From Clostridiaceae bacterium (GTDB lineage: Bacteria > Bacillota > Clostridia > Saccharofermentanales > DTU023), in contig JAAYRJ010000168.1 in NCBI GenBank assembly GCA_012518845.1, positions 1 to 36,050 on the forward strand: a stretch of DNA of 36,050 nucleotides, given 5' to 3'. The translations under genes and the position numbers were made by a program. The stretch's first letter is position 1. Each line of letters starts with the position of its first letter. This document shows, one piece after another, positions 23,075 to 25,293 of the stretch. The notes under the pieces are model-generated. The model was not told where the DNA came from, searched no databases, and saw only the letters and a list, made by a program, of their open reading frames with translations.

Positions 23075-23713
23075 ATGTTTCGAAAAATTACAAAAATTCA
23101 TCAAAAACCAGATTTTCACTTTTCTATTTGTAGCAACAATAAAGAGCTTTTTTCAAAATTTGAGGAAGCTCTCAGAAAAAATGGTATGGTGGGACTACCT
23201 GATCTACAGGGTAATCTCCATTATATTGTTGATGGACGAAAAGGTTTTCCAACGGCTTTTAAAACGATGAAAACGGCAACTATGCAATTAATGGAGTCAC
23301 ATTTTAATAATCAAAATCAAATAATTGAATCTTATCAAAGAATCGCTGATCAATTGATTACAAAATATGATTTTGATCAAGCCTTGATTGGGACAAAGTT
23401 TATATATCAAATAATCATTTATTGCTTATTAGACAAATCTTTGCTAATTTCTTTTTCAAAAAATTTGTATCCGACAATAGGTAAAATATTTCAAAGCTCC
23501 CCAGAAAAAGTTTCCTATTCTGTTCGTTATGCTTTTAAAAAGTTAGAACAAACTGAGAGAGAACAAAAGGCTAATAATGTCAAGCGAGATTATTTTTTCG
23601 ATGATAGTTTCGAAGGTAAAGGGAATCGCTTTACGATATATAAACTGGTTAAAGAGGCAGAAAGTTTAGTTAATATCAAAAATGGCGAAGAAATAAAAAA
23701 AGGCTATCACTGA
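23075..23713 (+). CDS. Spo0A C-terminal-domain-like DNA-binding protein with vestigial receiver
   Basis: In this 212-residue protein, residues about 105-160 align with the Spo0A effector domain. IGTKFIYQIIIYCLLD corresponds to the first helices, and LYPTIGKIFQSSPEKVSYSV to the LYPDIAKKFNTTASRVERAI recognition region of Bacillus Spo0A. The N-terminus has FSICSNNKELFSKFEEAL where Spo0A has its first receiver strand and helix (VCVADDNRELVSLL), but the acidic pair is Ser-Asn. The rest of the receiver, including a phosphoacceptor Asp, is missing. The protein is thus either a phosphorylation-independent descendant or a decayed Spo0A-like regulator with an intact frame. GGGAGG lies 8 bases before ATG. 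Similarity was judged by eye. Confidence 0.65.
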   Translation: MFRKITKIHQKPDFHFSICSNNKELFSKFEEALRKNGMVGLPDLQGNLHYIVDGRKGFPTAFKTMKTATMQLMESHFNNQNQIIESYQRIADQLITKYDFDQALIGTKFIYQIIIYCLLDKSLLISFSKNLYPTIGKIFQSSPEKVSYSVRYAFKKLEQTEREQKANNVKRDYFFDDSFEGKGNRFTIYKLVKEAESLVNIKNGEEIKKGYH

Positions 23714-24229: not shown

Positions 24230-24321
24230 TGGCGGAAGTGGAGGGATTCGAACCCTCGTGCCCATTGCTGGACAACCGCATTTCGAGTGCGGCGCGTTAC
24301 AGCCAACTTCGCTACACTTCC
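24230..24321 (-). tRNA. tRNA-Ser (anticodon CGA)
   Basis: This is a 92-base class II tRNA with CCA encoded. The acceptor stem is GGAAGTG/CACTTCC. The anticodon stem CCGCA/TGCGG encloses loop CTCGAAA, giving anticodon CGA, which reads UCG. The long variable arm and T-loop GGTTCGAATCC are typical of tRNA-Ser. Promoter and terminator flank it. Confidence 0.95.
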
Positions 24322-24343: not shown

Positions 24344-24372
24344 ATTATAACGAAGTAAGTATAATTAAGCAA
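24344..24372 (-). promoter_or_regulatory. tRNA-Ser promoter
   Basis: On the minus strand TTGCTT (24367-24372) and TATAAT (24344-24349) are 17 bases apart, 22 bases before the tRNA 5' end. The -35 overlaps the stop codon of the small LexA-box gene. Confidence 0.65.
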
Positions 24373-24682
24373 TTCTATCATTATTAAGTGGAGTATTTTT
24401 TGCTGATAAAATTGATATTTTATTATTTTCCTGATTTGAATTTTGTGTTTGAATAATAAATAATCCTATATCTTTAGAATATGTTTCTTCAAATCTATTT
24501 TGCTTTATATTTTCTAGTTGTATATTAAGTAGTTGTTTTCTTTTGGCTAAAATGTTCATCTCATTTTGTATTTGTAAAAATTCTTGCTCTTGATTTGAAA
24601 TATATTCTTCTTGCTTTCCTAATCGCAAGATTGCAAGTAATCCTAGTATTAATAGAGATATATAAAATAATAAATTTAACAT
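24365..24682 (-). CDS. LexA-controlled small membrane coiled-coil protein, candidate SOS division inhibitor
   Basis: I do not recognise the family of this 105-residue protein. It has an N-terminal membrane span (LLFYISLLILGLLAILRL, residues 4-21). A predicted coiled coil to about residue 65, rich in Glu, Gln, Asn, Ile and Leu, is followed by a polar Asn-rich tail. The topology is that of FtsL/FtsB/DivIC divisome proteins and also of SOS-induced inhibitors such as YneA, but no LysM domain is present. GAGGG lies 5-6 bases before ATG. Two LexA-type boxes lie 15-53 bases upstream of the start, so DNA damage should induce it. Function as a division inhibitor is inferred from regulation plus topology. 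Confidence 0.7.
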   Translation of the reverse strand: MLNLLFYISLLILGLLAILRLGKQEEYISNQEQEFLQIQNEMNILAKRKQLLNIQLENIKQNRFEETYSKDIGLFIIQTQNSNQENNKISILSAKNTPLNNDRIA

Positions 24683-24696
24683 AATTTCCCTCTCTC

Positions 24697-24708
24697 GAAC
24701 GTTTGTTC
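24697..24708. promoter_or_regulatory. LexA (SOS) box 1
   Basis: GAAC-GTTT-GTTC preceded by C gives CGAACGTTTGTTCC, one half-site base short of the Bacillus consensus CGAAC-N4-GTTCG. It sits 15 bases before the start codon of the small membrane protein gene, between its promoter and ribosome site. Confidence 0.8.
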
Positions 24709-24723
24709 CTTTATAAAGTAGCA

Positions 24724-24735
24724 GAACAAATGTTC
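24724..24735. promoter_or_regulatory. LexA (SOS) box 2
   Basis: GAAC-AAAT-GTTC followed by G again matches GAAC-N4-GTTCG. It is 27 bases (centre to centre) from box 1. On the minus strand a TTGACT -35 candidate lies at 24738-24743 just upstream, so box 2 would occupy the -35/-10 spacer. Confidence 0.8.
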
Positions 24736-24795
24736 GAAGTCAAGAAAAGAAAACTATGTTCGGTTTACAAAATTGTTACAAATATATTTTCCTGC

Positions 24796-25293
24796 TTACA
24801 CATCTTCAACTCTATATGAAATAGTTAGCTCCTCTAAATCTGTTTTTAACTGTTCATAGCAGACTTCTGCTGCATTCATCATTCTTTTAGAAGCGATTAT
24901 TCCTTCCGTTTCGGCGTATTTGTCCGATAAGTAGACGACCTTTCGAATACCTGATTGTATAATAGCTTTACAGCATTCGTTACACGGAAATAAGGGAACA
25001 TAGATCGAGCAATCTTTTAATGACATACCTGGATTGTTCAAAATTGCATTTAATTCTGCATGACAAACATATGGATATTTGGTTTCCAAATAATCACCTT
25101 CACGTGCCCAAGGAAAATCATCGTCACTAACTCCTAAAGGCATACCGTTATAACCTACTGAAACAATTTTATTATCTTGATTAACAACACAAGCTCCAAC
25201 CTGAGTATTTGGGTCTTTACTTCTTTGAGCAGACAATAGGGCTATACCCATAAAGTATTCATCCCATGAAATATAATCTTCTCTTTTTTTCAT
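24796..25293 (-). CDS. Deoxycytidylate (dCMP) deaminase
   Basis: This 165-residue zinc-dependent enzyme deaminates dCMP to dUMP, feeding thymidylate synthesis. The zinc site is CHAELNAILN (His-Ala-Glu) and PCNECCKAII (Pro-Cys-x-x-Cys). WDEYFMGIALLSAQRSKDPNTQVGACVV is the normal N-terminal region (given here as start and end of one stretch). The start at 25293 is chosen because AGGAG lies 7 bases before it; ten more codons upstream lack a site. In Firmicutes the same family includes ComEB. It may be cotranscribed with tRNA-Pro read-through, but a strong terminator lies between. Confidence 0.93.
   Translation of the reverse strand: MKKREDYISWDEYFMGIALLSAQRSKDPNTQVGACVVNQDNKIVSVGYNGMPLGVSDDDFPWAREGDYLETKYPYVCHAELNAILNNPGMSLKDCSIYVPLFPCNECCKAIIQSGIRKVVYLSDKYAETEGIIASKRMMNAAEVCYEQLKTDLEELTISYRVEDV

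Follow-up and report, generated by a model that had tools for sequence, protein, structure and literature searches.

Small, single-span and rapidly evolving membrane proteins, encoded at a fixed locus and controlled by LexA, are represented by YneA and SosA (PMC13396833, PMC6851548). YneA, SosA, ChiZ, and SidA block a late stage of division, and contact of their spans with FtsW was demonstrated for YneA and proposed for the others (PMC13396833). The C-terminus of SosA is a likely turnover signal: activity increased when the last ten residues were removed, and CtpA was implicated (PMC6851548). YneA is cleared outside the cell by YlbL and CtpA (PMC6051672). In Gram-positive bacteria, the link between the SOS response and division control arose several times (PMC3998124). 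A lexA mutant of Clostridium difficile filaments (PMC4689574), and the literature searched offered neither a named SOS division inhibitor of Clostridia nor a description of the LexA-controlled family that was the focus of this study. This family represents a concrete candidate for an SOS division inhibitor in one clostridial order.

The gene, its promoter, and LexA boxes

The gene is located on the minus strand at positions 24365-24682 of the window (the whole stretch of DNA that was analysed, 36,050 nucleotides). From an ATG preceded by a Shine-Dalgarno-like GAGAGAGGG, it encodes a protein of 105 amino acids (MLNLLFYISLLILGLLAILRLGKQEE...NNDRIA) with an uncharged N-terminus, one hydrophobic span (about residues 3-20), a helical stalk, and a variable tail ending in NNDRIA. 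The small protein with a single N-terminal span proposed in the preliminary description was thus confirmed, and the gene may indeed be called unrecognised: Pfam, NCBIfam, PHROGs, and PDB gave no family match, but at most scattered chance matches of single members. Between the species of the window and G002, dN and dS were 0.35 and 0.92, respectively (dN/dS 0.38), and third codon positions changed the most, indicating that 24365-24682 is a real coding gene. The coiled coil assigned to this protein previously was weak and not conserved: heptad periodicity was not clearly better than in shuffled sequences for the window protein (p 0.08), G002 (p 0.08), and five other relatives (p 0.2-0.99), and a coiled coil was dropped as the key feature of the family. 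AlphaFold2 (five sequences) predicted one helix at residues 2-82, with a mean pLDDT of 65 (low confidence), and a disordered tail.

The downstream neighbour in the genus of the window is tRNA-Ser (CGA; 24230-24321, minus strand), and the conserved upstream neighbour is a ComEB-like dCMP deaminase (24796-25293, minus strand), which lies upstream of the LexA promoter and is outside its control. The window also contains, at 23075-23713, a gene for a 212-amino acid protein in which a domain resembling the C-terminal part of Spo0A (Pfam E-value of 8e-9), but no receiver domain, was matched.

All of the following promoter elements are on the minus strand. A -35 element, TTGACT (24738-24743), which aligns with TTGACW in relatives, and a -10 element, TACTTT (24715-24720; G002, G003, G004, and G006 have TAAATT here), are separated by a 17-nt spacer. 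This spacer is filled by a LexA box, CGAACATTTGTTCT (24723-24736; 41-54 nt before the ATG), and another box, GGAACAAACGTTCG (24696-24709; 14-27 nt before the ATG), is located just past the -10 element; each has one mismatch from CGAACNNNNGTTCG, and the overall order is TTGACT-TCGAACATTTGTTCTGC-TACTTT-ATAAA-GGAACAAACGTTCG-AGAGAGGGAAATT-ATG. The first box starts at -54 from the ATG, and the second (start at -27) spans the expected transcript start. A degraded third box, CGAACATAGTTTTC (24749-24762; three mismatches), is directly above the -35 element, where relatives have better copies. The two boxes previously placed 15-53 bases upstream had been located essentially correctly, the computed span being 14-54 nt. 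This promoter was not listed by an automatic scan because its -10 element is weak. The exact sequence GAACNNNNGTTC occurred at 13 sites in the genome of 1.774 Mb, not above the 21 of the reversed control, and a single exact site may, therefore, be due to chance. Two of the 13 sites are at this gene, and the expected number of upstream regions (150 nt) with two exact sites is about 0.001 per genome (assuming about 1700 genes).

In the window genome (1.77 Mb, 237 contigs, 88% complete), in which the regulon was read from pattern searches, one lexA gene was found, the product of which, as read directly, retains a GDSM serine, as expected, and an Ala-Gly site for cleavage (...ITAGSP...). Similar boxes precede lexA, recA (CGAACAATTGTTTG), and dinB (the polymerase IV gene). 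In the same genome, a consensus LexA core, GAACATTTGTTC (box at 1501 of L012; G000:C114), is upstream of a gene for an RtcB-like RNA ligase (ORF 1625-2878), making SOS control of RNA repair possible. At another locus (L145; G000:C95), CGAACTTATGTTTG (box at 1501) lies immediately 5' of a long ORF following recF, probably gyrB as judged by position.

Relatives and conservation of the operators

Relatives were first sought downstream of dCMP deaminase genes, as short one-span ORFs behind LexA boxes. Such ORFs were found in three clades: the genus of the window, genus g5 of the same taxonomic family, and family f3 of the same order. A profile built from 18 proteins at the deaminase locus, with promoters ignored, was used to search the order (188 genomes) and the class (391 genomes), and it identified relatives in 25 genomes of the three clades, within one clostridial order. 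The preliminary description had suggested a search for homologues keeping the LexA boxes; all 25 relatives had a box (two or fewer mismatches) within 105 nt upstream, and 20 had two or more. The corresponding values for other genes at the same loci were 16/147 and 2/147, respectively, and this comparison is conservative because a few of the 147 belong to the family itself. The six newly found relatives (G005, G177, G180, G183, G184, and G185), which were identified without promoters, were boxed in every case (6/6). Among 16 weak profile matches elsewhere, one had a poor box match (Fisher 9e-5; p-values ignore shared ancestry); these matches outside the three clades were rejected since 15 of the 16 lacked a box, and several of them represent other proteins.

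A typical promoter among the relatives consists of TTGACW, 17 nt, and a TATAAT-like hexamer, with a box 5-14 nt past the -10 element and usually another just above the -35 element. The box after the -10 element keeps the same position relative to it in most relatives, and boxes within the spacer (also present in G002, G010, and G016) were found in the species of the window, G002, and genus g5. As in LexA regulons, a CGAACNNNNGTTCG-like operator (the Bacillus-type box) overlaps the promoter and is kept in relatives, and lexA and recA are boxed alike. The LexA (SOS) control claimed previously is now strong on sequence evidence, namely the boxes in 25/25 relatives, their overlap with the promoter, and the boxed lexA, recA, and dinB; conservation among relatives carries more weight than the sites of the window genome.

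Most of the family genes are located downstream of a dCMP deaminase; in G005, the gene and deaminase are on different contigs, and the operators are kept. Neighbours otherwise vary between clades, and the upstream deaminase is the sole conserved partner. A ruvC gene with its own LexA box follows the family gene in G041, and a small thioredoxin-like ORF with a CPHC motif immediately follows it at L038 (2269-2586) and L032 (G010 and G016), possibly forming one LexA-controlled operon with it. Some of these genomes share their protein with named records of uncultured Clostridia assemblies, among them 'Clostridiaceae bacterium AS10tlH2TH_42' (L050) and 'Mageeibacillus sp. UBA5734' (L051). A protein-alone sequence search of named genomes gave no match. 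Phage and plasmid records also gave no match to the family, and a mobile-element gene is, therefore, unlikely. Many LexA-bearing relatives lack the family, which is thus not indispensable.

Identity to relatives was only 10-51%, compared with roughly 72-89% for the adjacent deaminase over the same genomes, supporting the poor conservation noted at the outset for SOS division inhibitors. Features that are kept include the N-terminal span, an M-x-x-I-N-x-L-F-like beginning, and alanine at the C-terminus, and a brief motif, [RGD]-F-[FL]-x-[VI], recurs in several tails. Lengths range from 66 to 198 amino acids, with the exception of a 39-amino acid, span-only member in G178 (L131, 2123-2242) behind an intact LexA box, which is either a minimal form or a truncated allele. 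Neither LysM nor any other family was matched among 18 members, in agreement with the absence of LysM in the preliminary description. Judged from these sequences, this is a real membrane-protein family under LexA control; new here are the family itself, the position of its genes and the arrangement of their operators, an orientation predicted to be reversed, and the alanine conserved at the C-terminus.

Predicted orientation and the C-terminal alanine

All 25 proteins are free of lysine and arginine ahead of the span, whereas the 15 residues after it contain 63 of them across the set. This charge pattern predicts that the orientation is probably N-out/C-in, a prediction softened by 73 acidic residues in the same stretch. 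FtsL/FtsB (DivIC) proteins have a basic cytoplasmic N-terminus and an extracellular coiled coil, an orientation opposite to N-out/C-in. The FtsL/FtsB-shaped topology proposed previously was, therefore, unsupported, the basic residues being only after the span in 25/25 proteins and the heptads not clearly above shuffles. DivIC-like proteins among the weak matches (L165 and L188) have basic N-termini; DivIC, sought as a topology control, was not found in the window genome (88% complete). The orientations of YneA (PMC13396833) and SosA (PMC6851548), with the C-terminal part outside the cell, are also opposite to that predicted here.

The last codons of the gene, R-I-A-stop (24365-24376, minus strand), encode the conserved, degron-like C-terminal alanine, which was found in 21 of 23 complete relatives vs 24 of 560 other ORFs (4.3%). 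The alanine-type ends are KIA, CA, VA, AA, and SA, and the two exceptions end in KAG. A likely promoter of tRNA-Ser (TTGCTT-17 nt-TATAAT; window 24345-24376) extends over these codons, also in other species of the genus, and since this overlap confounds the genus of the window, clean evidence is given only by family f3: all of its 15 complete proteins end in alanine (many in RHxCA or similar), and no tRNA-promoter-like element was seen at the gene end. A tmRNA search for degron comparison yielded only partial, tRNA-like matches, and a CtpA-type protease (Peptidase_S41) was not found in the window genome (assembly 88% complete). Since the tail would lie on the cytoplasmic side according to the charge pattern, and since the incomplete genome yielded no S41 protease, turnover by a cytoplasmic protease is the simpler assumption.

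A putative division brake, its alternatives, and known systems

By analogy with the damage-induced small membrane inhibitors YneA, SosA, ChiZ, and SidA, the most likely role is that of a division brake, and we hold with slightly better than even confidence that the protein is a lineage-specific, rapidly evolving SOS effector of this type. Every step beyond the LexA boxes is one that we infer. The promoter would be repressed by LexA until DNA damage lifts repression, and the protein would insert into the membrane, probably N-out/C-in. Septation would be stalled by docking of the span on a divisome membrane protein, with FtsW as the leading candidate by analogy, and/or by action of the cytoplasmic tail on the Z-ring or membrane-anchor proteins. 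Once the DNA has been repaired, the protein would be removed by a protease reading the C-terminal xxA, of the ClpXP or Lon type if the tail is cytoplasmic. The family would thus fill the slot of the SOS division inhibitor in this clade. The boxes in 25/25 relatives and their conserved geometry around a sigma-70-like promoter are consistent with an SOS effector, the small single-span protein behind LexA boxes with the YneA/SosA type, and the alanine kept in 21/23 proteins, although the tail is hypervariable, with a shut-off. On the other hand, the family resembles no known inhibitor and is absent from many LexA-bearing relatives. More tentatively, we propose as a possibility that it represents a new, reversed-topology class of SOS checkpoint protein, in which the span and fast-evolving tail act on the divisome from the cytoplasmic side, with a cytoplasmic protease reading the C-terminal alanine, not CtpA, as the off-switch.

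SOS regulons also include membrane toxins, which counts against a division inhibitor. An SOS-induced membrane toxin or depolariser similar to TisB/DinQ, with a span that lowers the membrane potential such that damaged cells become dormant without the septum being blocked, would share the single span under LexA control, similar to the toxic SOS peptide DinQ (PMC3567139), and the span-only protein of G178 fits this; however, most relatives have a tail of 45-175 residues with a conserved end and known toxin peptides are much shorter, and we regard this as quite unlikely. A membrane-anchored SOS accessory with no action on division (a nucleoid-membrane tether, or a helper in repair or secretion) is unlikely: the long, variable tail and the ruvC and thioredoxin-like neighbours in G041, G010, and G016 suit it, whereas neighbours differ among clades and the only conserved operon partner, the deaminase, is outside the promoter.

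Regulation and size class, together with a fixed locus at low identity as in SosA (PMC6851548), might indicate a divergent classical member of the YneA/SosA group, oriented N-in/C-out and targeting FtsW from outside the cell. This is very unlikely because the gene is not beside lexA, no LysM or other family was matched in 18 members, the charge bias around the span is opposite, and Peptidase_S41 was not found in the 88% complete genome. The lack of genome-wide enrichment of single exact boxes (13 vs 21) would allow a random ORF beside chance LexA-like sites; conservation in 25 genomes, the promoter geometry, and dN/dS of 0.38 refute this, leaving it a negligible probability.

In over half of the genomes examined of genus g26 in family f2, lexA has a divergent neighbour of another kind, a small gene for a one-span protein with a basic N-terminus. 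These one-span ORFs (L194-L197, L201, L207, L208, L212, L214, L215, and L217-L219), at a shared box, CGAACAATCGTTTG, in the YneA position and with no evident LysM, appear from sequence to form another set of SOS membrane proteins that looks unrelated to the first. Different proteins may, therefore, occupy one and the same regulatory slot in sister groups, which fits the published multiple origins (PMC3998124). The family of the window also shows that the operator layout and C-terminal end of an SOS membrane effector can persist when most of the sequence and, in one genome, the location have changed, suggesting that such genes be sought without sequence similarity, through LexA boxes beside a fixed neighbour.

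EzrA and ZipA, in which an N-out span is followed by a cytoplasmic helical part, are far larger, constitutive membrane anchors of the Z-ring; the likeness is to the predicted architecture only, with no sequence similarity shown. TisB and DinQ, SOS membrane peptides of Escherichia coli, are restrained by antisense RNAs. They also have a single span under LexA control, but are much shorter than the proteins described here (66-198 amino acids, and one of 39); antisense RNA control was described for DinQ (PMC3567139). YneA of Bacillus subtilis is likewise a LexA-controlled small one-span protein, but its extracellular LysM is needed for activity and it binds TM7 of FtsW (PMC13396833), whereas LysM behind the span was found in 0/18 members here and the predicted orientation is opposite. 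Furthermore, the gene is not divergent from lexA, but on another contig beside the dCMP deaminase, and no small gene was found between lexA and its divergent neighbour in the window genome. The absence of LysM, from which a different class had been deduced, is a weak argument because SosA also lacks it (PMC6851548). SosA of Staphylococcus aureus (77 amino acids) is similar in LexA control, one N-terminal span, a fixed chromosomal place at low identity, and a C-terminus that limits its amount (PMC6851548). It differs in having no detectable similarity to the family, and in a tail outside the cell linked to CtpA, whereas the charge pattern here puts the tail inside, no S41 protease was found, and the conserved neighbour is a dCMP deaminase. 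SidA and DidA of Caulobacter crescentus are also small, damage-induced membrane proteins without LysM, of which DidA is SOS-independent (PMC4211646); they belong to a different phylum and have no similarity to the present family, in which a long tail terminates in a conserved alanine.
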